A DNA stretch of 64,000 bases from a virus (IMGVR_UViG_3300028615_000023:1-64000), one strand, 5' to 3'. Positions 5,660-62,125 are shown, counted from the first letter of the stretch. Numbers and translations: made by a program. Notes: generated from the sequence alone by a model not told the origin.

Positions 5660-5673
5660 TGGTATATATACCA
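5660..5673. promoter_or_regulatory. TATA palindrome, operator-like copy 1
   Basis: Perfect dyad TGGTATATATACCA, matching the core of a second copy at 5706-5721. The pair flanks a terminator-like hairpin between the RlaP gene and the genes leading to the polymerase. Likely a repressor site; the protein that binds it is unknown. Confidence 0.5.
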
Positions 5674-5678
5674 AACGT

Positions 5679-5703
5679 AAAAAGCCCGAATTTTGCAGGG
5701 TTT
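5679..5703 (-). terminator. Weak rho-independent terminator after the RlaP gene
   Basis: On the minus strand, AAACCC and GGG(C)TTT form a short stem with one bulge, followed by TTTTT. The stem is short, so termination may be partial. Confidence 0.4.
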
Positions 5704-5705
5704 CG

Positions 5706-5721
5706 TTGGTATATATACCAA
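5706..5721. promoter_or_regulatory. TATA palindrome, operator-like copy 2
   Basis: Perfect 16-bp dyad TTGGTATATATACCAA, centred 47 bp from the first copy. It lies immediately after the stop codon of the RlaP-type gene. Confidence 0.5.
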
Positions 5722-21255: not shown

Positions 21256-21462
21256 TTATTCGAAAACAGCATTGAGATTCGTATCATCTAAGTAATCATA
21301 ACCATCAAGCTTACAGTCACAAGATTTCATTGGATTGTTATCAATTAAAACATAACAACCGTAAGCAAGATGATATTTAATAGGATGCTTGCAGTTAGGG
21401 CATGGTTCCTCTGCCCTTACAAACTCAAACAAATTATCTTGCTGTTCTTTGTTCATAAACAT
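21256..21462 (-). CDS. 68-aa zinc-ribbon protein
   Basis: PCPNCKHPIKYHLAYGC followed by SCDCKLDGYDYL gives a CxxC/CxC metal site. The ribosome site is a start-associated repeat (21468-21488) with CGGGGAAAAA instead of CGGGGAGG. Two ATGs (MFM) are close together; the first is used here. Confidence 0.6.
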   Translation of the reverse strand: MFMNKEQQDNLFEFVRAEEPCPNCKHPIKYHLAYGCYVLIDNNPMKSCDCKLDGYDYLDDTNLNAVFE

Positions 21463-21467
21463 TTTTT

Positions 21468-21488
21468 CCCCGATAGCAGTTAATAACC
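21468..21488 (-). repeat. Start-associated repeat, copy 1
   Basis: Minus strand GTTATTAACTGCTATCGGGG. It contains the TAA of the upstream gene at 21480 and the GGGG ribosome site of the gene starting at 21462. Confidence 0.75.
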
Positions 21489-21704
21489 TTCGTGACGCCT
21501 AGCTAATGCTTTACGCTTACGTTTTGGAGGAGTAGCTTTATGCGCTACTTTGTTTGCACGTCTCTCCCTGTAGTCTACTTCAGATTGCAGTCTAGAAAGC
21601 TCAGCATAATCCTCAGGTGAGTTCACTGGCTTAGTTTCCATCCATGCAATATGATCATTCAGTTTCTTCTTTGCTGCGACCACTTGGTTAAGAAGTGTCT
21701 TCAT
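21480..21704 (-). CDS. Unknown basic 74-aa protein
   Basis: MKTLLNQVVAAKKKLNDHIA is helical; the C-terminus is basic (HKATPPKRKRKALARRHEG). The TAA stop is supplied by the start-associated repeat. Function unknown. Confidence 0.55.
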   Translation of the reverse strand: MKTLLNQVVAAKKKLNDHIAWMETKPVNSPEDYAELSRLQSEVDYRERRANKVAHKATPPKRKRKALARRHEGY

Positions 21705-21708
21705 AAAG

Positions 21709-21855
21709 CTACTCCCCTTCCAGTTCCTTAACTAGCTTGTCCGCATAGGTCCTGATCTTCTTAAGACCATGAACTGTTTCCTCATATGGTATCATGCCAT
21801 CGCCAAAGAAGTTATAAATAGCTTTGCATATCTCTTCAGGACTCATTGAACTCAT
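21709..21855 (-). CDS. 48-aa helical protein
   Basis: Starts MSSMSPEEICKAIYNFFGDG behind GAGGAGAATTGTT and ends KELEGE with TAG just before the next gene. Codon usage and ribosome site support a real gene. No homologue recognised. Confidence 0.6.
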   Translation of the reverse strand: MSSMSPEEICKAIYNFFGDGMIPYEETVHGLKKIRTYADKLVKELEGE

Positions 21856-21873
21856 AACAATTCTCCTCTTAGG

Positions 21874-22152
21874 TTAAACCTCCAATGCCTGTTCGAACAA
21901 TCGTTGAACATTAGCAAAGTCTTCATGCATACCTTCGATAACTGCAACTTCCTCATCCTGAAATAGAACAGTAGCATGCATGCCATCGAGAGCGTCGAGC
22001 ATCATAGTGAACTCGTTATCAGAGTTAGGAGTTAGTTCACTGTAAGGAACACCTCGAAACTCAACAACGAAACCGCGACCATCCCTAACTAGCAAGACGC
22101 CATCTTCCCCCTGATTAGGTGCGCTAAGGTGAAAAGCTCTGGTCCTTCTCAT
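21874..22152 (-). CDS. Unknown 92-aa protein
   Basis: MRRTRAFHLSAPNQGEDGVL; alternates short strands and helices, ending in an acidic helix (MHEDFANVQRLFEQALEV). Overlaps the end of the upstream zinc-ribbon gene by 29 bases. Function unknown. Confidence 0.6.
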   Translation of the reverse strand: MRRTRAFHLSAPNQGEDGVLLVRDGRGFVVEFRGVPYSELTPNSDNEFTMMLDALDGMHATVLFQDEEVAVIEGMHEDFANVQRLFEQALEV

Positions 22153-22375
22153 TATTATCTACCACCTTCCTAAGTGTCCCATTGGGCAGAAGAACTATAC
22201 TAAGTTCCTCATAGTCATCAGGACTGTTCTTAAATTGTCTCTTAAGATAATCTTGCCCACCATCAACAGCTACTCCACAACTGCACTGACGGAAATCATG
22301 GCGGTGCAGTGAAAGCAGTACCACTTTACAGGTATTACACTTGATCATATTTATTATTATCTTTTCCTCTGGCAT
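22124..22375 (-). CDS. 83-aa zinc-ribbon protein of a widespread phage family
   Basis: Start at 22375 (MPEEKIIINMIKCNTC) after AAAGGAGAGCTAAC. The pattern IKCNTCKVVLLS, RHDFRQCSCG, then AVDGGQDYLKR matches a small phage family I recall (possibly DUF7695) with CxxC...HDFxxCxCG...VDGG. Metal binding is nearly certain; function unknown. Confidence 0.7.
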   Translation of the reverse strand: MPEEKIIINMIKCNTCKVVLLSLHRHDFRQCSCGVAVDGGQDYLKRQFKNSPDDYEELSIVLLPNGTLRKVVDNNEKDQSFSP

Positions 22376-22376
22376 G

Positions 22377-22781
22377 TTAGCTCTCCTTTGTAGCTTTGAC
22401 TCTTGCGTAGTCTCCTGAACCTGAGAAGTACCAGCCGTAATATATACGACCATTGATAGCTTTGAACCTAATGGACCTACGCTCAGCATTGAATACATGA
22501 AACGGAGAACCTAGCACACAATGATGAGCTAAGATATCGCCGGTCCAAGTAGTTACTTTCCGTTCCTTTTCATTTACATAACAGAAGTAGCGGTCAGGTT
22601 TATCATGTATGAATTCATAAACTTCAATAGCTGACCACTCATCGTTAGTAATTCTTGCATTGGCTGGCACTTCATCAGCATAGTAAGGACCACTATTCAG
22701 CGTATGCCAGTCTTGAAACCGCTGCCAACGATCACATAATTCAATGTACCGTGCCTTTGATATCTTATGAATTGCTAACAT
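22377..22781 (-). CDS. Unknown 134-aa beta-rich protein
   Basis: MLAIHKISKARYIELCDRWQ with many aromatic residues and a C-terminal INGRIYYGWYFSGSG. The start uses a start-associated repeat (CTATCGGGGGAATC then ATG). No family recognised. Confidence 0.6.
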   Translation of the reverse strand: MLAIHKISKARYIELCDRWQRFQDWHTLNSGPYYADEVPANARITNDEWSAIEVYEFIHDKPDRYFCYVNEKERKVTTWTGDILAHHCVLGSPFHVFNAERRSIRFKAINGRIYYGWYFSGSGDYARVKATKES

Positions 22782-22785
22782 GATT

Positions 22786-22807
22786 CCCCCGATAGCAGTT
22801 AATAACC
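22786..22807 (-). repeat. Start-associated repeat, copy 2
   Basis: Minus strand GGTTATTAACTGCTATCGGGGG. It supplies the stop of the 53-aa gene and the ribosome site of the gene starting at 22781. Confidence 0.75.
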
Positions 22808-22960
22808 TGCTTTCTCAAGTTCCTTTTGAACTTCGTAGTTTTGAAACTCACGAACGTCTTTCATCTTCTGCCTATAGTAATAGGCATTGTATAGGAATCG
22901 CTCGTAAGAATGATTGAAGTACCGGAAGTTAGGTGTGAACTCTCGCCTTCTTGTTACCAT
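22799..22960 (-). CDS. 53-aa aromatic-rich basic protein
   Basis: Start at 22960 (MVTRRREFTPNFRYF), after AAAGGAGCAAGAAAG. Rich in Tyr, Phe and Arg (HSYERFLYNAYYYRQKM). Stop codon lies in the repeat. Function unknown. Confidence 0.55.
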   Translation of the reverse strand: MVTRRREFTPNFRYFNHSYERFLYNAYYYRQKMKDVREFQNYEVQKELEKAGY

Positions 22961-23011
22961 CTTTCTTGCTCCTTTCTTTCTTAATATGATCACACGGCTG
23001 GAGGGCATACG

Positions 23012-23089
23012 TTAGATTCGAAACTGTTCGAGAAGAAAGAAAGCGATAGTAATAATCGCCAACATAATAAACAATACTACATCAATCAT
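23012..23089 (-). CDS. 25-aa membrane microprotein
   Basis: ATG at 23089 overlaps the TGA of the upstream gene (ATGA) and follows AGGTGGTGTCC. The peptide is one hydrophobic helix (MIDVVLFIMLAIITIAFFLL) with a short polar end (EQFRI). The length and character fit a single-pass membrane microprotein. Function unknown. Confidence 0.5.
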   Translation of the reverse strand: MIDVVLFIMLAIITIAFFLLEQFRI

Positions 23090-23289
23090 GGACACCACCT
23101 ACATTTATGCTCGTGAGGTTTACAATCTCTACCAAGATAAGGACCGGACTTATGAAGTTGAACAGCCCATCCAAGTTCATATCGAACCACGCGCTTAGTA
23201 TGATCGAAACGTGACTCAGTAATTCTATTCATAATATTCCTGGCTTCCACGTAAGTAGGATAATAGAAGATTCCATTCTTAACTTTCAT
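23086..23289 (-). CDS. 67-aa Cys/His protein
   Basis: MKVKNGIFYYPTYVEARNIM; the C-terminus DCKPHEHKCRWC is a likely metal site. Its start overlaps the TGA of the 410-aa gene and its stop overlaps the microprotein start, so three genes are translationally chained. Confidence 0.6.
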   Translation of the reverse strand: MKVKNGIFYYPTYVEARNIMNRITESRFDHTKRVVRYELGWAVQLHKSGPYLGRDCKPHEHKCRWCP

Positions 23290-24518
23290 GCGGCCACCTC
23301 CGCTATTACTTTTGCTTTAGTAGGACGTGATGCAAACGCGAACGTCTCATCACGGTCAGAACGTTTTAGTAAAGCTTCAAACTCTACTGTGTCGCCTTCG
23401 TTAAGTGTATGATGATTTATGTTACTAGGAATGGTGGACCATACGCGGAAGCCGCGCGGATCTTCAACCGTCATTTTCCAAACGTCACCATACATGGATG
23501 AGTTACATTTAATCTTAAGAACCTTGCCACTAACCTTGACTCTTTCACCGATAGGCGCGGGCATTGACGGTTTACCTTTGCGTTCTTCTTCTTTCCTCTT
23601 CTTAGTTTCCTCCTTTTCCATGGCGCGATCATAAGCGCGAGGTGCGCTTACTATTAAACCCCAATGCTTAAGACTAGTAACTTCATCTCTTACAAACAGA
23701 ACCTTAAGATTATGGAGGTAATCATTGCCTCTGGTATCGAGATTACGTACCCACTCGATAACATCGGCGGCTTTCTTATTAAGCTTCTCTCGATACTCCT
23801 TATCAACCGGAGCATTGATCTTCTCTCGAAGCTCCTTACCATATTTGTCAGAACAGAAAAGGTAGTCCTGACAAACATACTTAGTAGGCTGATCAAAGTC
23901 GTTTGTTGTAGGTACGAAGCCAAGGCGTTCGATAATAAGCACAGCAACCTCAACAACCACTTGCAGTGGCATTATGGGATCACCATGACGGCCACCATTA
24001 TATTCATCATCACCCATGGCCCCGATAGCAGTTAACAAACCGTAAAACTTAAATTTGTTAATAACAGATTCAGGCGAATCTGTACCTAGGAAATCTCGCA
24101 AGCAAGTACGTCCAACCTGCTTGAAGGTTCTACCCTTCTTAACTATGAACACGTCTTTACGCTGTCGGTTGTGTCCACAGTGGTCACACTTATCAGTAGT
24201 GTTACGATACTTACTAGGTAGAGCATCCTCCTGACCGGGAACATGATGCAACAAACAGTCTTTATTAACAAACTCGATACGTGCTAGAAACTCCCATCCT
24301 TCCAACATAACAGGAGCATCGGAAACCTCAACGTCGATTAGCACACGTTCGATTTTAACTGTCTCCCCGGTAACTGGAGAATACTTCTCAAGAAAAACAC
24401 TATAAGGCTCTCCGAACGAATACGTTATCTCACACCCAAGCTTCGAGCCTTTGGCAGCTAGCTTAGCAAGCGCAATCTCAGCAGCGGACTTGAACATCTC
24501 TTTAATAGTAACTTTCAT
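23286..24518 (-). CDS. 410-aa zinc-binding protein with a C-terminal OB-like region
   Basis: The largest protein of the small-gene cluster. A metal motif CDHCGHNRQRKDVFIV near 110, then a QVGRTCLRDFLG motif near 138, is a combination I have seen in hypothetical proteins of phages and plasmids. A Lys/Glu-rich linker near 310 (EKEETKKRKEEERKGK) leads to a beta-rich C-terminal part (GERVKVSGKVLKIK) resembling an OB fold. Likely nucleic-acid binding. Oddly, a perfect start-associated repeat (24020-24040) is embedded in frame, encoding LLTAIG just before AMGDDE, as if two genes had fused or an internal start existed. Confidence 0.65.
   Translation of the reverse strand: MKVTIKEMFKSAAEIALAKLAAKGSKLGCEITYSFGEPYSVFLEKYSPVTGETVKIERVLIDVEVSDAPVMLEGWEFLARIEFVNKDCLLHHVPGQEDALPSKYRNTTDKCDHCGHNRQRKDVFIVKKGRTFKQVGRTCLRDFLGTDSPESVINKFKFYGLLTAIGAMGDDEYNGGRHGDPIMPLQVVVEVAVLIIERLGFVPTTNDFDQPTKYVCQDYLFCSDKYGKELREKINAPVDKEYREKLNKKAADVIEWVRNLDTRGNDYLHNLKVLFVRDEVTSLKHWGLIVSAPRAYDRAMEKEETKKRKEEERKGKPSMPAPIGERVKVSGKVLKIKCNSSMYGDVWKMTVEDPRGFRVWSTIPSNINHHTLNEGDTVEFEALLKRSDRDETFAFASRPTKAKVIAEVAA
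24020..24040 (-). repeat. Start-associated repeat inside a coding region
   Basis: Minus strand GTTTGTTAACTGCTATCGGGG, followed by CC and an in-frame ATG. It lies within the 410-aa gene and is translated as LLTAIG, the only intact copy embedded in a gene. Confidence 0.7.
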
Positions 24519-24548
24519 TCGCTTCCCCCCTCCGATAAGGTAGTTAAG

Positions 24549-24878
24549 TTACAGTCTGCCCTCAGTGTTAAGAATTATTTCTGCATCGAACACGTCTTCA
24601 GATGTTCCATTTATGAATTCATGATTACCTAACAACTTCAGAACAAAGTGCTCGGCTGGATAGTAGCTCTTGAGTCCTGAGTAACGGGACCCAGGATTTT
24701 CAGAGTAACCTTTACGAGTTACTAGCAAGGTATTGCGCCGCTCATCATAAGCTCGCAATCTTACCTCCCCCACTTCGCCACTAAACTCAACGTGACTTGT
24801 GGACTTGTTAAAGTTAAGAAGTTTCATATTAGGTTTGATTGAACCATCCTCAAATCTACAGTGCTTACATAGTGCCAT
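24549..24878 (-). CDS. Unknown 109-aa protein with N-terminal CxxC
   Basis: MALCKHCRFEDGSIKPNMKL. CKHC alone is insufficient for a zinc site, so dimerisation or a different role is possible. The rest is beta-rich. It starts from a variant repeat (24886-24904). Confidence 0.6.
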   Translation of the reverse strand: MALCKHCRFEDGSIKPNMKLLNFNKSTSHVEFSGEVGEVRLRAYDERRNTLLVTRKGYSENPGSRYSGLKSYYPAEHFVLKLLGNHEFINGTSEDVFDAEIILNTEGRL

Positions 24879-24885
24879 GAGCTTT

Positions 24886-24904
24886 TCCTCCCCGATAGAA
24901 AATT
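24886..24904 (-). repeat. Start-associated repeat, variant copy
   Basis: Minus strand CTAATTTTCTATCGGGGAGG, retaining the 3' CTATCGGGGAGG core but with a divergent 5' part. Ribosome site for the gene starting at 24878. Confidence 0.65.
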
Positions 24905-25355
24905 AGTTTCTACCTGCGAACTCTGGATAGTGACAAACGTGAGTGTGACCATCTTCCTTAGTTGGGACGGCTAGCGTATCCCAAGACGGCTCAAGTTCAG
25001 GATGCTTTTTACAGTAGTCACAATTACAACCTCCGCACGGCCTACGCAGTTCAGAAGGCAGTGATACGAAAATTACATCTGAGTTTTTTCTAACTTGTGT
25101 ATGCCTACCATTCATGTTCCCGTGCTTAGGACTCGACTTCTTAATAGCTTCAGTAACAGCAGGAGGTTTAATAGGTCTCGGCTCCATAACGGCTTGCAAG
25201 ATTTTATCATTCCACTCTGCCATTTGTTGCGCCATGCTAAGAAGTAGCTGCTCGATTTCGTTTGGACTGGAAGAGTAATACTCTGCAATGCGCTCGATGC
25301 TCTCGCCTTCCATAACCATGTTCACAATGTCACTACGCTCTACTTTTGTAAACAT
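24903..25355 (-). CDS. 150-aa protein with N-terminal helix-turn-helix and C-terminal Cys/His cluster
   Basis: The first 45 residues (FTKVERSDIVNMVMEGESIE, then RIAEYY) look like a small helix-turn-helix as in sigma region 4 or transposase-like domains. The C-terminal third has CGGCNCDYCKKH and HTHVCHY. Could be a DNA-binding regulator; target unknown. GGAGGTTCTT precedes the start. Confidence 0.6.
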   Translation of the reverse strand: MFTKVERSDIVNMVMEGESIERIAEYYSSSPNEIEQLLLSMAQQMAEWNDKILQAVMEPRPIKPPAVTEAIKKSSPKHGNMNGRHTQVRKNSDVIFVSLPSELRRPCGGCNCDYCKKHPELEPSWDTLAVPTKEDGHTHVCHYPEFAGRN

Positions 25356-25364
25356 AAGAACCTC

Positions 25365-25760
25365 CTAATTATCTATGTCGCTATAAGTATACTGTTTAGT
25401 AAGCCACTCATAGAAACAGTTATCTATGTAGCTTTTTATGCCTTCGTAATTACTACCAGTGACTTTTACAACAAAGTCTTCTGAAAGACTCGCTGTTATA
25501 ATAACATCGTGATAGGTCCACTTAACATACATACCTTCTTCATTCATATGATGGAAGGCAGTATGAAAGACTAGTTTCTTGTGGTTGCTATTCACCTCAT
25601 CAAGTTGAGTTCCATTGTCAAAGCCTGAACCGGAAGGAGCTTCTGACATTAGCTTCTTAATTCTCTTATCGAAGTTCTCAACCCATGTTCCATTGCCTTC
25701 CTTAATTGCGTTCTTCTTATCATCAACGTTCTGAGCAAGTCCAGTATAAATGTATGGCAT
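25365..25760 (-). CDS. Unknown 131-aa protein
   Basis: MPYIYTGLAQNVDDKKNAIK; mixed alpha/beta without Cys motifs. The start is fixed by a start-associated repeat, CGGGGAGGAAACGCGC then ATG. Function unknown. Confidence 0.6.
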   Translation of the reverse strand: MPYIYTGLAQNVDDKKNAIKEGNGTWVENFDKRIKKLMSEAPSGSGFDNGTQLDEVNSNHKKLVFHTAFHHMNEEGMYVKWTYHDVIITASLSEDFVVKVTGSNYEGIKSYIDNCFYEWLTKQYTYSDIDN

Positions 25761-25768
25761 GCGCGTTT

Positions 25769-25790
25769 CCTCCCCGATAGCAGTTAATAA
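25769..25790 (-). repeat. Start-associated repeat, copy 3
   Basis: Minus strand TTATTAACTGCTATCGGGGAGG, then AAACGCGC and the ATG at 25760. A canonical copy. Confidence 0.8.
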
Positions 25791-25794
25791 TCTT

Positions 25795-26244
25795 TTACTT
25801 AGTTAGTTTCGCGTTCATCTCTTCAACACGAGAAAGCTTATCAATAAGAGACTCAATCCTTTCCCTAGTTGATCTAGTTGAGCATGCGAACATATTATGT
25901 TTAGTATGCTCAAGTGCTGTCCTCATTAGGTGAACTTCCAATGGAGAGAACCGATGCTCCTCAGTTGGTTTCCTAGTTTGGTAACAGTGGTACACACCTT
26001 CGTCTCGCAAAACTATAAAGCACTCCTCAATACCTCCTGCTGTTATTTGGTGTGCGTATCGAATCACAGTGCTCCGTCTCTTTGCCGTCCAGTCACACGC
26101 CTTTCCATTGTTAGGGTTTATGCTTCTAGGAGTTCCATCTTTGTTAAGAATGAAACCGGCATAACCATACTGCCACATACCATCAATTGACTTATGAGGT
26201 TCACAACCGACAGCCAAGTCCATATGAAATTCATAACGTGCCAT
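25795..26244 (-). CDS. Unknown 149-aa protein
   Basis: Start at 26244 (MARYEFHMDLAVGCEP), directly after the repeat plus TAAAGCGC; a longer frame would translate the repeat itself. Contains KDGTPRSINPNNGKACDW. C-terminal half helical (STRERIESLIDKLSRVEEM). No family recognised. Confidence 0.6.
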   Translation of the reverse strand: MARYEFHMDLAVGCEPHKSIDGMWQYGYAGFILNKDGTPRSINPNNGKACDWTAKRRSTVIRYAHQITAGGIEECFIVLRDEGVYHCYQTRKPTEEHRFSPLEVHLMRTALEHTKHNMFACSTRSTRERIESLIDKLSRVEEMNAKLTK

Positions 26245-26252
26245 GCGCTTTA

Positions 26253-26275
26253 CCTCCCCGATAGCAGTTAACAAC
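26253..26275 (-). repeat. Start-associated repeat, copy 4
   Basis: Minus strand TTGTTAACTGCTATCGGGGAGG, then TAAAGCGC and the ATG at 26244. Confidence 0.8.
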
Positions 26276-26277
26276 CT

Positions 26278-26553
26278 TCAAACACTTTTTCTACTTTTCA
26301 CTTCTCCGTTAATGCAAATACGGCTATGATAATCCTTCAATAAAGCCACTTCACTAGGTGTTAGTATACGACATTCACTAGGATGCCATGCTACTTCATG
26401 ATGAAGCTTCTTATCTTTTAGACCATACGTTCCTACTCCCCGTACCATACATAAACAATGCAACTTAACCGGCAAACCATAATCTTCTATCTCACCATGG
26501 TCCAAGAATTCTACCTTACTAATCGGAATAACTATTCCGAAAGAGTGAGCCAT
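26278..26553 (-). CDS. Unknown 91-aa protein
   Basis: MAHSFGIVIPISKVEFLDHG. The central part contains LHCLCMVRGVG, and the tail is basic. Its ATG directly follows the TGA of the 28-aa gene. No clear ribosome site of its own; the upstream AAAGATGGA may serve. Probably coupled. Confidence 0.55.
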   Translation of the reverse strand: MAHSFGIVIPISKVEFLDHGEIEDYGLPVKLHCLCMVRGVGTYGLKDKKLHHEVAWHPSECRILTPSEVALLKDYHSRICINGEVKSRKSV

Positions 26554-26640
26554 TCAAGCAAATCCATCTTTAAACTCACTCTTTCTACGTAATACATAAC
26601 GGCCAACGTATTTCTTAAATGTGCTCTCACGTATTGCCAT
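26554..26640 (-). CDS. 28-aa basic protein with start-associated repeat
   Basis: Encodes MAIRESTFKKYVGRYVLRRK and SEFKDGFA. It has a full repeat and ribosome site upstream (26648-26670), exactly like its larger neighbours, which strongly supports translation despite its size. Function unknown. Confidence 0.6.
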   Translation of the reverse strand: MAIRESTFKKYVGRYVLRRKSEFKDGFA

Positions 26641-26647
26641 GCGCTTT

Positions 26648-26670
26648 ACCCCCCGATAGCAGTTAACAAA
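26648..26670 (-). repeat. Start-associated repeat, copy 5
   Basis: Minus strand TTTGTTAACTGCTATCGGGG, then GGTAAAGCGC and the ATG at 26640 of the 28-aa gene. Confidence 0.8.
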
Positions 26671-26671
26671 C

Positions 26672-26887
26672 TTACAAACTAAGTTTGTCTAGGTCGGCTT
26701 CAGTTACATAATCGTAACTGTATAAACCACGCTTAACCGGAACTCTCACACGTTCAGGACTACGTTTCCATACCTTAGGCTGGCCATTTACTCTCCATCG
26801 TCGCGGAGTACCGTCTGCGTTCTGAGCATCGACTTGATGGAGAATATCTCCGGGCTTCAGGTTCTTAGCTTGTTCCAATGTTATCAT
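26672..26887 (-). CDS. 71-aa SH3/KOW-like protein
   Basis: MITLEQAKNLKPGDILHQVD followed by basic beta strands (RWRVNGQPKVWKRSPERVRV). The LKPGDxL opening is common in small barrel proteins. A paralogue-like fold is encoded next door (26900-27157). Ribosome site AGGAGGAAATACTA. Confidence 0.6.
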   Translation of the reverse strand: MITLEQAKNLKPGDILHQVDAQNADGTPRRWRVNGQPKVWKRSPERVRVPVKRGLYSYDYVTEADLDKLSL

Positions 26888-26899
26888 TAGTATTTCCTC

Positions 26900-27157
26900 C
26901 TAAACTTTTGCATAACGACCGTCTGAACCTTTGCTAACTTCAAACCGAAGTTTAACAGCCGACTTGATAGTAACTTCCCGTTTAGTAATCATATTGACGC
27001 CAGCCATGCGCGTCGTTTCCCGATAGGTTATACGACCGGCAAACTGATCATAACTAGGAATCGACTTCTTAGCTATGCGAACTATCTTTACTGGAACCAG
27101 ACGACCGGAAATCTTAGCTGCGTAAATCTTACCTTCAACTACTTCGTTAAGCTTCAT
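26900..27157 (-). CDS. 85-aa small-barrel protein
   Basis: MKLNEVVEGKIYAAKISGRL with basic strands (RITYRETTRMAGVNMITKRE). The pattern VVEGKIYAAKxSGRLVPVKI suggests an SH3-like fold. Ribosome site is the variant repeat 27163-27183 (CTATTGGGAGGG). Confidence 0.6.
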   Translation of the reverse strand: MKLNEVVEGKIYAAKISGRLVPVKIVRIAKKSIPSYDQFAGRITYRETTRMAGVNMITKREVTIKSAVKLRFEVSKGSDGRYAKV

Positions 27158-27162
27158 AACTT

Positions 27163-27183
27163 TTCCCTCCCAATAGGTAACTA
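27163..27183 (-). repeat. Start-associated repeat, diverged copy
   Basis: Minus strand GTTAGTTACCTATTGGGAGGG, upstream of the ATG at 27157. Core CTATCGGGGAGG has drifted to CTATTGGGAGGG. Confidence 0.6.
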
Positions 27184-27363
27184 ACCTGCTTTATGTAGTT
27201 CCTTCCATTGCTCCATAGCTAGCATGCCTTCAATGAATGATTCAGCATCTCTGAGAGAAGAAAGAAACTTGCTTTTTTCATCTCCATAACTAACGCACCA
27301 ACCCTTAAGGCCACCGTTTACAAATACTGGTTTAATCGTTAGTGTATCCTTAATGTTAATCAT
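27181..27363 (-). CDS. Unknown 60-aa protein
   Basis: Start at 27363 (MINIKDTLTIKPVFVN), after GAGGAGACAAAAATC. Short beta hairpins then a helix (RDAESFIEGMLAMEQWKELH). Function unknown. Confidence 0.55.
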   Translation of the reverse strand: MINIKDTLTIKPVFVNGGLKGWCVSYGDEKSKFLSSLRDAESFIEGMLAMEQWKELHKAG

Positions 27364-27419
27364 GATTTTTGTCTCCTCGGCTATTGCTTGTTTGAGATAC
27401 AGCACACATTTTCTTAGGT

Positions 27420-27629
27420 TTAGTCATCTATGCATTCCTCCTTTTCGAAAACCGCCTCATAGAAGCGCTCTGCACTGAATTGCGGGTTGTCTTCGGACAG
27501 CGCGTCCACGACAGCATGATAAGCGCAAAGAAATCCATTGTCCGATTTGAGATCAAAATCTGTATGATGTAAACGAATGTAGGCGTCGTGGAGCTTACTT
27601 GCTATTAACTGGTAATCCTTTTTATGCAT
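27420..27629 (-). CDS. Unknown 69-aa protein
   Basis: Start at 27629 (MHKKDYQLIASKLHDAY), following the repeat CTATCGGGAGAAAAAAAAGA. Resembles small helical phage proteins with the pattern ALSEDNPQFSAERFYEAVF. Acidic C-terminus (FEKEECIDD). Function unknown. Confidence 0.6.
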   Translation of the reverse strand: MHKKDYQLIASKLHDAYIRLHHTDFDLKSDNGFLCAYHAVVDALSEDNPQFSAERFYEAVFEKEECIDD

Positions 27630-27639
27630 TCTTTTTTTT

Positions 27640-27683
27640 CTCCCGATAGGAAATAACAAACTCCCCGATAGGAAATAACAAAC
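27640..27683 (-). repeat. Two start-associated repeats in tandem
   Basis: Two head-to-tail copies of TTTGTTATTTCCTATCGGG occur back to back; the second carries the ribosome site of the gene starting at 27629, the first has no gene start of its own. Direct evidence that the element duplicates. Confidence 0.8.
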
Positions 27684-27684
27684 T

Positions 27685-27852
27685 TTAGAACACCTCAACT
27701 ATAGGTTCAAGGCAGTTCTCACAAGTATGGTCGTCGCGACAGTACTCGAAAAAGATAGGAGTGACGGACTCACTATTACGATTGCCATCGAAGCAATCTA
27801 AACAGTAGATAGCATCGTCTTCTGCATAACCTACAACTTCAGATATGTTCAT
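27685..27852 (-). CDS. 55-aa protein with two CxxC motifs
   Basis: Start at 27852 (MNISEVVGYAEDDAIY), after AAGGGAATGGGT. CLDC near 17 and CENC near 44 make a zinc ribbon. Its leader holds a start-associated repeat whose GGGGAGG is locked in a hairpin (27877-27897), leaving the AAGGGA site downstream. Confidence 0.6.
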   Translation of the reverse strand: MNISEVVGYAEDDAIYCLDCFDGNRNSESVTPIFFEYCRDDHTCENCLEPIVEVF

Positions 27853-27876
27853 ACCCATTCCCTTCTTATTTGTTAG

Positions 27877-27914
27877 GGGGAGGCGTCGAGCCTCCCCGAT
27901 AGGAAATAACAAAC
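27877..27914 (-). repeat. Start-associated repeat with a hairpin over its ribosome site
   Basis: Minus strand TTTGTTATTTCCTATC then GGGGAGGC, 5-base loop and GCCTCCCC. The perfect 8-bp stem covers the Shine-Dalgarno of the repeat. Confidence 0.75.
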
Positions 27915-27924
27915 GCTTACTTAA

Positions 27925-28098
27925 CTATGCCCACGACCTCCACTTGATCCCATACTTATCCGCGAGTTCATCAACATCATCCCTAGACAAACACTCATTC
28001 ACTACTGCCTGAGATAGGATTACTCCTAACTCTTCTTCAGTAACATTGTCTGCAATGATATCGAAGAACTCAACTGGTACTATAATCTTTTGTTCCAT
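27925..28098 (-). CDS. 57-aa acidic protein
   Basis: Starts MEQKIIVPVEFFDIIADN, 8 bases after AAGGAG (a second ATG 6 bases upstream is too close to the site). Helical with acidic clusters (VTEEELGVILSQAV). Fills what would otherwise be a gap. Confidence 0.6.
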   Translation of the reverse strand: MEQKIIVPVEFFDIIADNVTEEELGVILSQAVVNECLSRDDVDELADKYGIKWRSWA

Positions 28099-28118
28099 GT
28101 TCATAACTCCTTTCTTAG

Positions 28119-28304
28119 TTAAAGACAGAACTCCTCATGACATAGCGGACACTGCCAATCGTATCCGCCTCCACTTAATAAGAACGCTGCGCCATGATGC
28201 TGTAACGGATCACTAGCAAGCGGGCAATCCTCCGGCGAGTACTGTCCCACTTGAGCTTCCGCTTCCTGTAGAAGCTCACTTAACATATGTTGTAAGTCTG
28301 CCAT
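28119..28304 (-). CDS. 61-aa protein with C-terminal CxxC
   Basis: Start at 28304 (MADLQHMLSELLQEAE), directly after the repeat and AAACGCGC. A helical N-terminus, then CPLASD and WQCPLCHEEFC. Probably one zinc site. Function unknown. Confidence 0.6.
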   Translation of the reverse strand: MADLQHMLSELLQEAEAQVGQYSPEDCPLASDPLQHHGAAFLLSGGGYDWQCPLCHEEFCL

Positions 28305-28313
28305 GCGCGTTTC

Positions 28314-28335
28314 CCTCCCGATAGCAGTTAAGAAA
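28314..28335 (-). repeat. Start-associated repeat, copy 6
   Basis: Minus strand TTCTTAACTGCTATCGGGAGGG, ribosome site for the ATG at 28304. Confidence 0.8.
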
Positions 28336-28336
28336 C

Positions 28337-28660
28337 TCACAGACTAGTATACAGTCCAGTGAGTCTTGTGAAACTCTCCTGAAGTGTATCGCAGTACACT
28401 TCAGTTTCCCGTCCTACCATCTCTACGTATGGTGCTTTCTTAGTAATACGCCACACGCTAACTGTGTATGTGTCGGAAGGTTCAAGATCAATCTGAACCT
28501 TGCTAACTTTCTTGCCGTTGCATCTAGCATTAGGAACATGAAACAGAACACCTTTTTCTGTTACGGTAACACCCCTTACGCCCGTCATAGCTGCGAACCT
28601 TCCGGCTCCAAGCTGTTTCATGATCGTTTCCGCGACTTCATAAGCTATGCTTGCCTTCAT
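28337..28660 (-). CDS. Unknown 107-aa protein
   Basis: Start at 28660 (MKASIAYEVAETIMKQL) after GAGGAGGTACGTT. The order helix, strands, then VWRITKKAPYVEMVGRETEV suggests a compact alpha/beta fold. The ending DTLQESFTRLTGLYT is helical. Similar proteins occur in other phages as hypotheticals; no function known. Confidence 0.6.
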   Translation of the reverse strand: MKASIAYEVAETIMKQLGAGRFAAMTGVRGVTVTEKGVLFHVPNARCNGKKVSKVQIDLEPSDTYTVSVWRITKKAPYVEMVGRETEVYCDTLQESFTRLTGLYTSL

Positions 28661-28675
28661 AACGTACCTCCTCAA

Positions 28676-28891
28676 TTAGTAATTATAACGAATTGTGTCG
28701 ATGTTTTGTACCCAATCATCCTGACAGATGTTAAGAAGCTTTTCCTTAACTTCCTTGACCTTCATATCTTTGTATTTAGTTAGCAACCCTTCAAGCACTC
28801 GGTACAAAGCTTGCCTAACTTTACAGTCATCTTCATAGACCATGCCGTTACCTATTTCGATTGCCATATCCATTGCTCTATTCTTTTTCAT
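28676..28891 (-). CDS. Unknown 71-aa helical protein
   Basis: MKKNRAMDMAIEIGNGMVYE, then charged helices (LTKYKDMKVKEVKEKLLNIC). Starts from the repeat 28900-28922 (CGGGAGGAAAAATCT). Function unknown. Confidence 0.6.
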   Translation of the reverse strand: MKKNRAMDMAIEIGNGMVYEDDCKVRQALYRVLEGLLTKYKDMKVKEVKEKLLNICQDDWVQNIDTIRYNY

Positions 28892-28899
28892 AGATTTTT

Positions 28900-28922
28900 C
28901 CTCCCGATAGGAAATAACAAAC
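28900..28922 (-). repeat. Start-associated repeat, copy 7
   Basis: Minus strand GTTTGTTATTTCCTATCGGGAGG upstream of the ATG at 28891; the TATTTCC variant shared with the 27.6 and 29.2 kb copies. Confidence 0.8.
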
Positions 28923-28929
28923 GAGAAAC

Positions 28930-29136
28930 TTAGTTTCGGTTCCGCTTCCTAACTATTACCTTGCCAGTGTATACCGGCTTCACGCTAGGATTGAAATCAG
29001 CTACGCACCATTCCCGGCCTGACTCATAATCTCGTTCCCTAGCAACAGCACGAGCGCCAGACTGATTAGTAGCACCATTCAAACGGGCATTGTTTCTCCA
29101 CGATTTCATAATCTGATCAACACGTCGCATGCTCAT
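28930..29136 (-). CDS. Unknown 68-aa basic protein
   Basis: MSMRRVDQIMKSWRNNARLN, Arg-rich, ending KVIVRKRNRN. Preceded by AAGGAGAATGAGC. Function unknown. Confidence 0.55.
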   Translation of the reverse strand: MSMRRVDQIMKSWRNNARLNGATNQSGARAVARERDYESGREWCVADFNPSVKPVYTGKVIVRKRNRN

Positions 29137-29155
29137 TCTCCTTATCAGTTAACAA

Positions 29156-29192
29156 GGGGCCGCCACGGCGGCCCCGATAGGAAATAACAAAC
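29156..29192 (-). repeat. Start-associated repeat ending in a 9-bp GC hairpin
   Basis: Minus strand GTTTGTTATTTCCTATC then GGGGCCGCC, 2 bases and GGCGGCCCC. The hairpin 29156-29175 replaces the ribosome site, and a separate AAGGAG serves the gene at 29136. Confidence 0.75.
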
Positions 29193-29194
29193 TC

Positions 29195-29311
29195 CTACTT
29201 AACTAGTTTCAACCGTCCCTTGCATCGGCATACGATACGAGACAGAAGCACGTTCTTAGGAATACGCTTCTGTTTATTACACCTCACACACTCAACGAGC
29301 TTGGTCTTCAT
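29195..29311 (-). CDS. 38-aa zinc-ribbon protein
   Basis: Starts MKTKLVECVRCNKQKRIP behind GGAGGAAGACAT. CVRC and CRCK pairs form a minimal metal site; the rest is basic. Similar in style to the 36- and 48-aa ribbons near 2.1 and 9.5 kb. Confidence 0.65.
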   Translation of the reverse strand: MKTKLVECVRCNKQKRIPKNVLLSRIVCRCKGRLKLVK

Positions 29312-29334
29312 ATGTCTTCCTCCTTATCGGTTTG

Positions 29335-29652
29335 TTACCTTGTGTAGATACCGTGGCGTCTCCGATAATCGTAAAGCCGAAAAGTGTATTCAGCATCACA
29401 CACACTCGAATGATTCTTAGTTCTGCATCTACAATTCCTAGGAAGCTCCGGATCAGGTCTCTCCTTAGCAAGGTTATACCTTGCAGAATTCGTACTTGCC
29501 GGAAGCTTAGTATAGGTCCTGTTTCCGCATTCCCTATACCTATGGCTTCGACCATTCTTCACTTCAAGCACGTGATCACACCTAAACTTGCGTCCCGCTT
29601 CAATCACTGTAGCATGATCACACTTATTACAAACTACGTTCAACAGTTTCAT
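29335..29652 (-). CDS. 105-aa Cys-rich protein, first gene after the long leader
   Basis: Start at 29652 (MKLLNVVCNKCDHATVI) after GTGGAGGTTACT. CNKCDH and FRCDH near the N-terminus, and later ECGN and CRCRTKNH, suggest two metal sites. First gene downstream of the promoter at 30569-30597, so probably among the earliest expressed; it could regulate the region. That is inference from position. Confidence 0.6.
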   Translation of the reverse strand: MKLLNVVCNKCDHATVIEAGRKFRCDHVLEVKNGRSHRYRECGNRTYTKLPASTNSARYNLAKERPDPELPRNCRCRTKNHSSVCDAEYTFRLYDYRRRHGIYTR

Positions 29653-30562
29653 AGTAACCTCCACTTTATTAGTTAACATTCCACACACTGAGACTAACTA
29701 GGTTGTCTCAATTAGGAGCACTAGCGTCCGCCCATTAGGGTTTGCCTAACTAGTGCTCCACGTTCAAACAACCTTGCCGTTGTTATGATTTTTTACACTT
29801 CATAATCGCTCGACTATTTTCGCTGGTCTAAGATCGCTGCACCTAGTTAATAATGCTGTCACCTATTACTAACTAGGCGTCGATGCGCCATGGTTACTTA
29901 TGAACTCTCGAACTCATGCAAGAGTCTGAGTCTAACAACATGAGTTTTACTGATTACTGTTTGCGCCGTTCGTCTGGATAGCTAAGTCCAACCAACGGCT
30001 AGTTAACTATTAGACTCCCTGGGGTCCGCGTGTTAACTTGCTTACGTCCATCGCCTAACAGCATCATTAGAGAGTAACTCACGTTCACCATGTTTTATCG
30101 TTTGAATATCCAGCCCATCTTAATTCTGCGTTCGCAGAACGCCCGATAGAATTTTTTGTTAACTAATAAATAGGCTATCAACTCTATGCTTATTAGTTAA
30201 CGCGACTCCCTAGGTTCGCATGAAAAACGCTATCAAGGTTTGGCTAGTGGATTGATTATGAAGTAGCCCGTTTTGTTGATGGTGGCAAATCCATCGAAGC
30301 TCCGGACAGTCTTCTTAGTAGCGCGATTCGCACGGCTACAATTTGCGTCGGTCGGCTTTCCTTCCACGTACTAGCCTTTATACCTGCGCCTTTTTTCGTT
30401 CGAGGTGGCTCGGTTCCGTTTCCTCGCACTGGCCACAGACAGTTCGCTTTCCATTGAAGATGGCCATCTTCAACCCGTCTCGCGCCAGTGATTCAATTTT
30501 GAAAGAGCAATCGGCTATGGGCTCCCTGGGTCCCTGTGCCGCGACAGTCAAACTGTCAATGT
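29653..30562 (-). ncRNA. Candidate structured leader RNA, about 900 bases without genes
   Basis: Between a strong promoter and the first gene there is no convincing open frame. Inverted repeats on this segment: 29715-29724/29750-29759 (10 bp), 29911-29918/29939-29946 (8 bp), 29965-29970/29994-29999 plus an inner 4-bp arm, 30124-30139 (6 to 7 bp), 30158-30168/30191-30201 (11 bp), and a perfect 20-bp palindrome at 30454-30473. A degenerate repeat of the form ACTCCCTGGGGTCCGCG occurs near 30013, 30205 and 30521. I found no tRNA cloverleaf. It may be a regulatory RNA, a long attenuated leader or an uncharacterised ncRNA. A variant of the start-associated repeat lies at 30141-30163. Confidence 0.45.
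30543..30557. promoter_or_regulatory. Operator-like dyad just downstream of the promoter
   Basis: Perfect inverted repeat GACAGTcaaACTGTC, placed at about +5 to +19 relative to the predicted transcription start near 30562. Such a position suits a repressor site. Confidence 0.5.
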
Positions 30563-30568
30563 TCCTGT

Positions 30569-30597
30569 AGTATGCCAGTATCAGGACTATGTGTCAA
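30569..30597 (-). promoter_or_regulatory. Strong extended -10 sigma-70 promoter
   Basis: Minus strand TTGACA (30597-30592), 17-base spacer ending TGG, and CATACT (30574-30569), giving TGgCATACT. A perfect -35 box with optimal spacing. Probably the main early promoter for the small-gene region. Confidence 0.75.
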
Positions 30598-35357: not shown

Positions 35358-35364
35358 ACTCGAA

Positions 35365-35395
35365 TAAAAAAGGCGCGAACTTATGCTCGCGCCTT
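35365..35395 (-). terminator. Strong terminator ending the late region
   Basis: Minus strand AAGGCGCGA, 8-base loop, TCGCGCCTT, followed by TTTTTATT. Perfect 9-bp stem. It isolates late transcription from the replication operon promoter just downstream. Confidence 0.9.
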
Positions 35396-50062: not shown

Positions 50063-51594
50063 TTAGTCTATGAGTTTCGTAAACTTATCACGAATTATCT
50101 TCGTAGTTACTCCACCCTGCTTAATACTATCACTATCTCTTATTAACTTAATTGATGCTCTATCACCAACTAATATAAAATCGTTAGGATTAACCGGAAC
50201 AATCTGAAAAGCTGCTGTTATAGGGAGCGCAGAATCAGTTTCAAAAGCTATCCCAACACTAAGTATTCCAGAGATAACAGTAACAGATAACGCTGCGTCT
50301 GTCTCTGAAACAATACTAACTAATCTACTAATAGGATTATCAATATCCTGAGCCGTGTCAATTTCTATAGCATTATTGACAAGCCTACTAATAGGATTAG
50401 AAATATCCTGAGCCAAGTTTGATTCTATAACCTTGACTAAATCTTTTTGTTTTGATCTTTCAATTAGTCTAGCAAGATCAGATTCAGACGCAATCTGTAT
50501 ACTTTTACTATGACTAGAAGTTAATGTTCTCGAAACATCTATTTCAGTAGACAATCCAAGAACAGAAGCTTTCAACTTATTAATAGTTCTAGCTAAGTCA
50601 GTTTCCGATGCCAACCCTAATGCATATAAGCGTTCTGGAGTTATTAATATTGATTGATCAGTTTCCGTAGCTGTACTTACTAACCTACTAATAGGACTTT
50701 CTTTAATTAACTGAGCTAGATCAGTCTCTAGAACCTGAGCAACAGTTAATTCAGCAGGTATATTAATATCTCTAGATAAATCAGTTTCCGAAGCTATAGT
50801 TAATTGTTCAGTCTTTTCTCCACTAATAGAAATAGATGTATCAGTTTCCAAAGATTTAAGTAAAGAAGAAACCTTTGATTTGCTAATAACTCTTGATGAA
50901 TCTGTTTCTAATATCTGATTTAGTAGTCTAGTCTTTATAGCATTTATAGCTCTTGAATTATTAACTTCAATTGCTATACCAGTGGTGCGACTTTTTAGAT
51001 TTCCGATTACTTGTGATACTTCACTCTCGTTAGCTTGTGATACATCCTTATTTTTTAACTTACCTAATGATTGAGAAATATCAGTTTCAGTTACTTGAAA
51101 GACTGTCTCAGTAATTGTATCAGGCAATGATATAATCCTAGCTAAATCAGTCTCCGTAGCTATATTTACTAATCTACTAATAGGATTCTCAGATACATTC
51201 TGAGCAAGGTCAGTTTCCAAAGCTTGCACCAATTCCTTAACTTTCAAACTGCTTAAAGGTTGAGATGTATCTAATTCATTAGCTCTAGTAATCAATCTAT
51301 GAATTGGATTAACAGTTAATATCTGTGCAATGTTAGTTTCTAAAGCTTGTGAAATATTCTTCGTCTTCACATTGTTAAGAGCCTGAGATAAATCTGTTTC
51401 CGATGCACTAGATAATATCTTAGTTTTAAAGAATACTACTGTCTGTGAAATATCAGTTTCATTAACTTGAGTTAATAACTTAAACTTAGTAGAAACTAAT
51501 GCTTGAGCTAAATCAGTTTCCGTAACAGTATTTACTAACTTATGAATTGGATTGATAACTATTGCTTGAGACGTGTCAGTTTCCGTAGTTAGTT
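50063..51594 (-). pseudogene. ETD-repeat protein, downstream (C-terminal) part after a frameshift
   Basis: Continues the repeats of the preceding gene in the +1 frame. A GTG at 51370 could start a 435-aa protein, but the same frame is already open and repetitive from about 51594, so the natural product is probably one large protein of about 870 residues. It holds more than 20 copies of a 20 to 21-residue unit, E-T-D-x-A/S-Q/R-x-I followed by a K/P-rich half and a small hydrophobic stretch. Last 70 residues are non-repetitive (VNPNDFILVGDRASIKLIRD). Function probably structural. Confidence 0.6.
51447..51585. repeat. 139-bp perfect direct repeat, copy A
   Basis: Identical to 51703-51841, offset 256 bp. 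Because 256 is not a multiple of three, the two copies lie in different frames of the interrupted ETD-repeat gene. Confidence 0.9.
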
Positions 51595-52673
51595 TCAGTA
51601 GAAATAACTAAAGCCTTCTGCTTTAACCTATTTATAACTTGCGCAAGACTAGTCGTACCAGTCTGAACAACAGTTATAACTTTTGGATTACTAATAGCTT
51701 GAGAAATATCAGTTTCATTAACTTGAGTTAATAACTTAAACTTAGTAGAAACTAATGCTTGAGCTAAATCAGTTTCCGTAACAGTATTTACTAACTTATG
51801 AATTGGATTGATAACTATTGCTTGAGACGTGTCAGTTTCCGCAGTTATAACTTTTGGATTACTAATAGCTTGAGAAATATCAGTTTCCGTAGTTTGATTT
51901 ATAGACTTCTGTTTTAGCTTATTTATAACCTGAGCAAGATCAGTTTCTGACACAAGAGCAACGGACTTATTAATAGCCGTTGATCCAGGTATAGTAGTTT
52001 TACTTGATCCAGGTTTATATATAGGTGGATGATCAACTTGACCTACAGTACCAGTAAGAGTCCATAATCCACCGTCAATAAAATCGCGTTCGTTCCCAGA
52101 CCCACTTAAACCTGGAAGATAAGAAATCAAACTTTCTGGACGTACAAGCAACGGGCTGAACCCGTTTGCCAACATCGCAATTTCTTCATCCGTTAATGCT
52201 ACATCCCAAAGCCCGAACTCCGCAAACCGACCCGTATCGTTTGTGTAGGTCGTACCGGCCCATCGCGTAGTCGCGATGCTAAGCTCATCGCAATTGCCAA
52301 CAGAGATATTTCCAGTATTTGTACCTTTGTTTCCCCCATCAAGAAGCACTGCTCGATCATTACTCGCAATGAACTTGCCGCATACATGGTGCCAAGTGTT
52401 AGCGCTGTAGCCCGAAGAGGACGAAGCGATGCCGTTACCAAAAACGTTTACGGAGGTAAATGCCCGACACGGATCGCCGCCTAGGTCACCGGACAAGTCA
52501 ACCGTATGAGACTTATTATTATTTCCACTGACCGTTAAGGACATGCATGGATGATAACTCGTGATATCATCCACGTATGCCCACATCGCCATCGTAAACG
52601 GCTCCGACCCGTCAAAGCTGCCCGGCGGAGTGCGACGAAGATATTCACCACTTCCAAAATCACCACGTGCCAT
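51576..52673 (-). CDS. LamG-like lectin domain plus ETD repeats, upstream (N-terminal) part
   Basis: 365 aa. Residues 1 to about 220 form a concanavalin/LamG-like domain (FTMAMWAYVDDITSYHPCMS; RFAEFGLWDVALTDEEIAML), typical of phage adhesins that bind glycans. Then six ETD repeats precede the frameshift stop TGA at 51576. Located between the major tail proteins and the tape measure, it may decorate the tail tube. Confidence 0.75.
   Translation of the reverse strand: MARGDFGSGEYLRRTPPGSFDGSEPFTMAMWAYVDDITSYHPCMSLTVSGNNNKSHTVDLSGDLGGDPCRAFTSVNVFGNGIASSSSGYSANTWHHVCGKFIASNDRAVLLDGGNKGTNTGNISVGNCDELSIATTRWAGTTYTNDTGRFAEFGLWDVALTDEEIAMLANGFSPLLVRPESLISYLPGLSGSGNERDFIDGGLWTLTGTVGQVDHPPIYKPGSSKTTIPGSTAINKSVALVSETDLAQVINKLKQKSINQTTETDISQAISNPKVITAETDTSQAIVINPIHKLVNTVTETDLAQALVSTKFKLLTQVNETDISQAISNPKVITVVQTGTTSLAQVINRLKQKALVISTETNYGN
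51703..51841. repeat. 139-bp perfect direct repeat, copy B
   Basis: Same sequence and orientation as copy A. The repeat covers several ETD units. Confidence 0.9.
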
Positions 52674-59817: not shown

Positions 59818-59837
59818 TATTAGCTCCTTATCTTAAA

Positions 59838-59865
59838 GTAAGGGGAGCACGATGGCTCCCCTTAC
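59838..59865 (-). terminator. Terminator or attenuator after the major capsid gene
   Basis: GTAAGGGGAGC and GCTCCCCTTAC form a perfect 11-bp stem with a 6-base loop, followed by TTTAAG on the minus strand. It would allow capsid protein to be made in excess of the downstream genes. Confidence 0.75.
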
Positions 59866-61639: not shown

Positions 61640-62125
61640 TTAGCTACGAAGAGAACGAATCGCATTAGCCTTAGCTTCAGCCGTCATTTCCTTATGTCCG
61701 TTTCCATCTCTCTGGCCTTCACTAAGATCACCACGAAGCGTACTAGCGGGCTTGTCACCATCACTCTTAGCAGCGTCAGCAGATGCTTGAGCCGCTTCTT
61801 CGAACTTCTTAATAACAGCCTTTTTCTCTTCCGTAGTTTTACCCTTTAGCATCGACTTAATGTCTTCGTCATTCTTAAAGCTATCAGGCAATTTCGATTC
61901 ATTAAGAAGTGTGGCGATTTCACCTTCCTCCTTACGTGCCTGTTCAGCAATATCACGCTCCTTAACAGTCTGCTTCAGAGTCTCATTCTCTTCCTTAAGA
62001 GTCTTGACCTGATTTTGCATATCTGCCCATTCCTGATTCTTCTTGAATTCCTCAGTGAACTCATCACGGAGAGACTTCATAAGTTCAGAATCTTTCTTAA
62101 CTTCCGAAAGCTGAATTCTATCCAT
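61640..62125 (-). CDS. Nested scaffold protein from an internal start
   Basis: Within the protease-scaffold gene, AAAGGAGGTAATAAAGTA precedes an in-frame ATG at 62125 (MDRIQLSEVKKDSELM). The 161-aa product would be a free scaffold: coiled coil (NQVKTLKEENETLKQTVKER), then a polar tail (TLRGDLSEGQRDGNGHKE). Lambda C/Nu3 uses the same arrangement. Confidence 0.7.
   Translation of the reverse strand: MDRIQLSEVKKDSELMKSLRDEFTEEFKKNQEWADMQNQVKTLKEENETLKQTVKERDIAEQARKEEGEIATLLNESKLPDSFKNDEDIKSMLKGKTTEEKKAVIKKFEEAAQASADAAKSDGDKPASTLRGDLSEGQRDGNGHKEMTAEAKANAIRSLRS

Follow-up and report, generated by a model that had tools for sequence, protein, structure and literature searches.

Twelve copies of a directional, start-associated repeat in the small-gene block of a tailed phage

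The stretch of DNA analysed here, 64 kb long and called the window below, is part of a 64,553-bp IMG/VR virus entry (IMGVR_UViG_3300028615_000023) from a tailed phage (siphophage), and its minus strand carries nearly all of the genes. Head and tail genes come first in transcription order (63.5-39 kb, among them a lambda-J-like protein and a tape measure), followed by a DNA helicase, a DnaB-like helicase and a primase at 35-31 kb, a noncoding stretch at 30.6-29.65 kb, a block of small genes and, last, the replication genes at 21-0.1 kb, including a family A DNA polymerase and a single-stranded DNA-binding protein. Twelve near-identical copies of a 22-nt repeat lie at 21,468-29,193, all on the minus (gene) strand, and mark off mini-operons within the small-gene block, each holding a single gene or several. 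Outside 21.47-29.19 kb no copy was found in the window or elsewhere in the record; the structural genes (39-64 kb) are devoid of copies, all of which stand at non-structural genes.

An earlier note on this DNA had described a directional family of start-associated repeats controlling small genes. The family itself is confirmed, and we infer the control. Scored with a position weight matrix (PWM) built from the copies, the twelve reach 33-39 bits, or 29.6-38.3 bits when left out of the matrix, and the next best site in the 64 kb reaches 7.4 bits, giving a bimodal score distribution without intermediates. The best site per shuffle averaged 4.9 bits over 30 shuffles, one of which reached 19.8. 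Matches to CTATCGGGGAGG with up to two mismatches numbered 12 against 1.9 expected (0/100 shuffles). The 22-nt block has the consensus [A/C]GTTTGTTAAYTSCTATCGGG[G/A], and information outside it is sparse: the 17 nt ahead of the block hold 2.3 bits and the 21 nt behind it 3.3 bits. The two 5' subtypes that had been proposed were also recovered: seven copies carry TTAACTGC (TTAACTGCTATCGGG) and five carry TTATTTCC (TTATTTCCTATCGGG), the latter having 20 identical bases in common. Total information amounts to 32 bits, compared with the 13.4 bits that would suffice to locate 12 sites among 128,000 positions; an excess of this kind has been described for T7 promoters. The repeat is asymmetric, and 12/12 copies point in the gene direction. 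A clustering of the subtypes along the genome was considered and found unconvincing (four runs in 12; exact runs probability ~0.08, calculated by hand). The right-hand end of the family, previously placed near 30149, had to be moved, as the site there consists of the 8-mer core without a 5' half, is probably a chance match and was dropped.

Table 1. Repeat copies and associated features of the small-gene block. Full copies are named in the text by the position of the C of CTATCGG; ATG distances are counted from the first G of the G-run.
Feature	Positions	Strand	C of CTATCGG	Basis or remark
Copy 1, subtype TTATTTCC, then GC hairpin	29172..29193	-	29180	PWM, 36.8 bits
Copy 2, subtype TTATTTCC, ATG at +14	28902..28923	-	28910	PWM
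Copy 3, subtype TTAACTGC, ATG at +15	28316..28337	-	28324	PWM
Copy 4, subtype TTATTTCC, then GC hairpin	27894..27915	-	27902	PWM
Copy 5, subtype TTATTTCC, adjoins copy 6, without own start codon	27663..27684	-	27671	PWM
Copy 6, subtype TTATTTCC, tandem partner of copy 5, ATG at +15	27641..27662	-	27649	PWM
Copy 7, subtype TTAACTGC, ATG at +14	26651..26672	-	26659	PWM
Copy 8, subtype TTAACTGC, ATG at +15	26256..26277	-	26264	PWM
Copy 9, subtype TTAACTGC, ATG at +15	25772..25793	-	25780	PWM
Copy 10, subtype TTAACTGC, in frame within 410-aa gene 23286-24518, in-frame ATG at +6	24020..24041	-	24028	PWM
Copy 11, subtype TTAACTGC, includes upstream gene's stop, ATG at +9	22787..22808	-	22795	PWM
Copy 12, subtype TTAACTGC, includes upstream gene's stop, ATGs at +9 and +15	21468..21489	-	21476	PWM
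Hairpin GGGGCCGC-CGTG-GCGGCCCC (8 bp), starts at first G of copy 1; ATG of gene 29130 45 nt on	29156..29175	-
Hairpin GGGGAGGC-TCGAC-GCCTCCCC (8 bp), starts at first G of copy 4; ATG of gene 27852 45 nt on	27877..27897	-
Partial copy, CTATCGGGGAGG and start region, without 5' half	24875..24898	-		sequence
Partial copy, CTATCGGG and GCGCATGGC start, without 5' half, in frame within 85-aa open reading frame 26900-27157	27009..27026	-
Degenerate copy CTATTGGGAGGG, core and start region without 5' half, ahead of ATG 27157	27155..27176	-
Small-gene block, ~27 genes, carries all repeat copies	21256..29652	-		nearly all genes without recognisable family
Best minus-strand candidate for a sigma-70-like promoter in the region, ahead of the small genes (TTGACA-17-CATACT, with TG)	30569..30597	-		10/12 matches

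An ATG follows the G-run after 6-15 nt in nine of the 12 copies (one of these inside another gene), with a spacing of 14-15 nt in six, 9 nt in two and 6 nt in copy 24028; copy 21476 has its second ATG at 15. The three copies without such an ATG are 29180 and 27902, with ATGs at 39 and 45, and 27671, which runs straight into another copy. When sites were placed at random in the block, none of 20,000 trials brought as many of them within 15 nt of a gene start as were observed. The statement that the repeat almost always ends in a ribosome site just before an ATG is thus correct for the nearby ATG in 9/12 copies and overstated for the rest, as 3/12 lack one and the block ends ahead of GGAGG, which follows it in a minority of copies. 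Likewise, the upstream stop codon, said to be supplied often, lies inside the block in 2/12 copies (22795, 21476), and in two others it reaches the first base of the block. Genes with a copy have a longer upstream gap (median 33 vs 16 nt, p = 0.006), part of which is explained by the room taken by the element itself.

Most of the conservation is found upstream of the G-run (25.8 bits), with 5.7 bits in its first three bases and 2.0 bits in the next four, the Shine-Dalgarno (SD) tail. Positions -13 to -1 upstream of CTATCGGGG hold 16.9 bits, in agreement with the claim that conservation extends beyond the SD; the refuting outcome named in the earlier note, a lack of conservation there, did not occur. 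Complementarity of the repeat to E. coli 16S rRNA or to the upstream noncoding region was not above that of shuffled queries, and the conservation upstream of the SD points to recognition by something other than the 16S rRNA 3' end, as the earlier note had supposed in more general terms.

One possible explanation is a translation signal of the start-associated sequence (SAS) type, in which a protein or RNA of phage or host would bind the mRNA block upstream of the SD in a long early transcript, determining when, or how efficiently, translation of selected genes begins. The 14-15 nt spacing of six copies and the alternative ATG at +15 in 21476 are consistent with such a signal, as are the GCGCATGGC start region common to several starts (four of its five minus-strand occurrences in the window adjoin copies or partial copies), a layout near start codons of non-structural genes like that of the SASs of cluster K mycobacteriophages, and the single good sigma-70-like promoter, which precedes the entire block, the copies themselves having none. 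It fits less well with the unconserved SD tail, the absence of complementarity beyond chance, and an SD strength no better than that of neighbouring genes (mean pairing energy ~-9.6 kcal/mol for genes with a copy, ~-9.4 kcal/mol for those without). Two perfect copies also speak against a translation signal, their G-run being tied up in an 8-bp hairpin at a distance of 45 nt from the ATG.

These two copies are 29180 and 27902, where the G-run forms the 5' arm of a perfect 8-bp stem. The minus strand of the window has just six loci with a perfect GC-rich 8-bp stem, and at two of them the first base of the stem is the first G of a copy. The two stems differ from each other at two pairs, both sides being changed in a compensated manner, and the leaders are otherwise related, with a common TAGTTAAGTA upstream and a similar SD-ATG end placed equally far along (45 nt to the ATG in both). 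Comparison of the two leaders, a thin basis of two sequences, favours a real RNA hairpin that begins at the G-run. Together, the small share of the SD tail (~2 of 32 bits), the equal SD strength and the G-run held in a hairpin at perfect copies weaken the reading of the repeat as an extended ribosome site.

Our preferred but tentative reading of the sequence is that the repeat defines the 5' limit of an mRNA, placed at the G-run, by way of a phage-specific promoter or of processing. The repeat would be a directional, sequence-specific cis signal at the heads of transcription or translation units in the small-gene block, whose members are probably early or middle phage genes. About 17 conserved bases upstream of the G-run would be recognised by a trans-acting factor, and the leader would open with GGG(G). 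The likeliest route would be initiation by a phage-specific polymerase or sigma factor, its polymerase gene lying in the missing part of the genome; a second route would be the cutting of a single long early transcript at CUAUC/GGGG. At most copies the leader start (GGGAGG) would double as the SD, putting the ATG 14-15 nt on, and at the two hairpin copies the G-run would open a 5' hairpin, the gene relying on its own SD. A 5' boundary at the G-run accommodates the asymmetry and single orientation of the repeat, the conservation upstream of the SD and the G-run as its 3' edge, as well as the hairpins that open there, the ATG spacing and the confinement to one small-gene block. In its favour are further the information in excess of need, the copies that are perfect at sites without a well-placed SD after them (22795, 24028, 27671), the longer gaps ahead of genes with a copy, and the division of the block into mini-operons. 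Among natural elements of such size and make-up, phage-specific promoters are the most common.

No large terminase was found in the record by a search that gives matches in 11 control genomes, and the record is thus incomplete, with genes missing. Phage-encoded RNA polymerases are rare among siphoviruses but do occur, and in KASIA the polymerase gene adjoins terL (PMC8541194); since the terL region is the part absent here, a polymerase gene could be missing with it. Several observations weigh against a 5' boundary. Neither an RNA polymerase nor a sigma factor was identified in the record, and the polymerase profiles PF00940 and phrog_414 were unmatched in searches that had no positive control match. 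Every open reading frame above 600 aa has another identity except 61640-63538, which lies in the head-gene region and weakly matches a family of unknown function. In addition, copies are absent from the structural genes and from the replication genes (1-21 kb), unlike genome-wide phage promoters, and the tight 14-15 nt ATG spacing is explained at least as well by translation. Translation control of the SAS type is graded as nearly as likely as a 5' boundary at the G-run.

Some copies are partial, tandem or intragenic. In the partial copies at 24898 and 27026, core and GCKCATGGC start region are present without the 5' half, and copies 21476, 22795 and 24028 have the 5' half without the GCKCATGGC start region, which indicates that the two halves of the repeat are separable. 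A diverged copy lies ahead of the gene start at 24518. Copies 27671 and 27649 abut exactly head to tail, so that the tandem period equals the block length. At copy 24028, the family of the surrounding 410-aa gene (phrog_2319) runs through the site, which falls in a gap-rich stretch of the alignment; the copy may be an insertion into this gene, although homologues this distant cannot prove it. The 410-aa protein (23286-24518, minus strand) belongs to an uncharacterised family with a CxHC...C cluster, whose members come from T4-like Vibrio and Aeromonas phages and from Streptomyces and Microbacterium phages.

Duplication of the repeat with each new gene, another suggestion of the earlier note, is not supported, given flanks that are unrelated except in the pair 29180/27902 and the dissimilarity of the small proteins, for which all-against-all blastp gave nothing better than E = 0.006; gene duplication was rejected as the cause. 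Spread of the 22-bp unit by recombination or templated copying into tolerated sites, with little or no regulatory role and with copies identical because they are young or gene-converted, is an unlikely alternative: it would explain the bimodal scores, the exact tandem, the in-frame copy at a gap-rich site of a conserved gene and the information far in excess of need, yet it leaves unexplained the single orientation in 12/12 copies, the nine copies that adjoin an ATG, the confinement to one gene block and the hairpin pairs preserved through double changes. It is more doubtful again that the block is a discrete unit copying itself without its flanks, a minimal self-spreading leader that would place newly acquired small genes under one phage-specific control. 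This idea is drawn from the block-length tandem, the in-frame copy in a conserved gene and the identical copies in unrelated flanks.

Directly upstream of the small genes, the best sigma-70-like promoter is followed by ~900 nt without convincing genes (29650-30565, minus strand), for which strong RNA folding is predicted (z = -4.7 vs 20 shuffles). Within this stretch are several long hairpins, stems in which GTTAAC recurs and a ACCYNAGGGAGYC-like motif that is present three times; it has no match in Rfam and is perhaps a structured leader or several small RNAs. The total count of sigma-70-like hits in the region is not above shuffles and none is at a repeat copy, which speaks against -35 and -10 hexamers at each copy; a sigma-70 promoter inside the small-gene block was rejected. 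Among the small proteins (21256-29652, minus strand), one strong match to DUF7695 and one to phrog_9437 were obtained, perhaps from the same protein. Elsewhere in the window, an operator-like pair of the 14-bp palindrome TGGTATATATACCA lies within ~60 bp of intergenic sequence (5660-5720). On the minus strand, one strong hairpin (AAGGCGCGAGC...GCGCCTTTTTTATT, 35360-35394) resembles an intrinsic terminator and another (AGTAAGGGGAGC...GCTCCCCTTACTTT, 59835-59862) stands immediately ahead of a gene start; recurring TACGGAAACTGATATTTC words within structural genes (50650-51900) are probably repeats in a tail or head protein.

Searches for relatives, which may not have reached near ones, returned none with the repeat: megablast of 20 kb against phages gave no match, exact-pattern scans of IMG/VR and of GTDB representatives gave single-match contigs or none (the IMG/VR hits were inspected), and a search for related loci with PolA, DnaB, the 410-aa protein, a 632-aa head-region protein, J and one repeat-headed gene gave nothing. 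Rfam gave no matches. The natural variants within this one phage (hairpin leaders, tandem, intragenic and 5'-less copies) make the transcription and translation readings testable. Should the repeat be a promoter, it would imply a phage polymerase or sigma factor so far unseen and offer an orthogonal promoter; should it act in translation, it would be a means of switching a whole small-gene block.

Promoters of T7-type single-subunit RNA polymerases span 23 bp, from -17 to +6 (...CTATAGGGAGA), and the T7 gene 10 mRNA likewise begins with a hairpin. They resemble the present repeat in length, one-way orientation, the G-run after CTAT that closes the block, and multiple copies among small genes; in contrast, CTAT-GGG alone is clearly shared, no polymerase gene was seen in the record, and late genes have no copies. 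The stoperators of cluster A mycobacteriophages, which are not known to be tied to start codons, offer another parallel in their many short asymmetric sites aligned with transcription, although no repressor was recognised here. Stoperators are 13 bp long and have a role in transcription regulation (PMC3203893). An operator of this kind, bound by a phage DNA-binding protein and damping transcription of the small-gene block, would suit many asymmetric, same-orientation sites in the short gaps of one transcription unit, but we regard it as highly improbable, given that neither repressor nor integrase was recognised, that position is tied to start codons and the G-run rather than to promoters, and that hairpins at the G-run would go unexplained.

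The start-associated repeats on record come from mycobacteriophages and Microbacterium phages, and what they do is still an open question. The SAS-like motif of cluster EF Microbacterium phages (GGGAAAGGACCCC, 13 bp, ten copies; PMC7302621) shares with the present repeat the ribosome-site positions and a conservation exceeding that of ribosome sites, and differs in lying at the ribosome-binding site itself, in its link to a GTAGAG-centred upstream motif and in sequence. The cluster K SAS has the consensus GGGATAGGAGCCC and 11-19 copies, and its function is unknown (PMC3203893); the role of SASs is still called ill-defined, and the extended SAS (ESAS) upstream in Adephagia contains putative SigA promoters. 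The parallel that had been drawn to cluster K stands as regards layout: both elements are asymmetric, tend to lie near start codons, and are confined to non-structural genes. Cluster K SASs lie in one orientation ~3-9 nt from the start codon; here 12/12 copies have one orientation, 9/12 have an ATG within 15 nt of the first G and 3/12 do not. The present repeat is also longer and of another sequence, with no match to GGGATAGGAGCCC at up to two mismatches. About half of the cluster K SASs have an upstream 17-bp imperfect inverted repeat (ESAS), which is not a regular feature here: upstream palindromes with arms of 6-7 were found at copies 26659 and 28910 only, folding z-scores at the copies are unremarkable except at 27671, and inverted repeats at two copies were rejected as an ESAS analogue. 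Finally, the conserved 13-mer of cluster K holds the SD core GGAG (phage Anaya, same profile treatment), while conservation here lies upstream of the SD, and conserved block and SD are distinguishable. Judged by its sequence, by where the conserved bases stand with respect to the SD and by the absence of a regular ESAS, the repeat is SAS-like in layout and not a cluster K SAS; it is a start-associated repeat of unrelated sequence in a phage with lambda-J-like tail genes.

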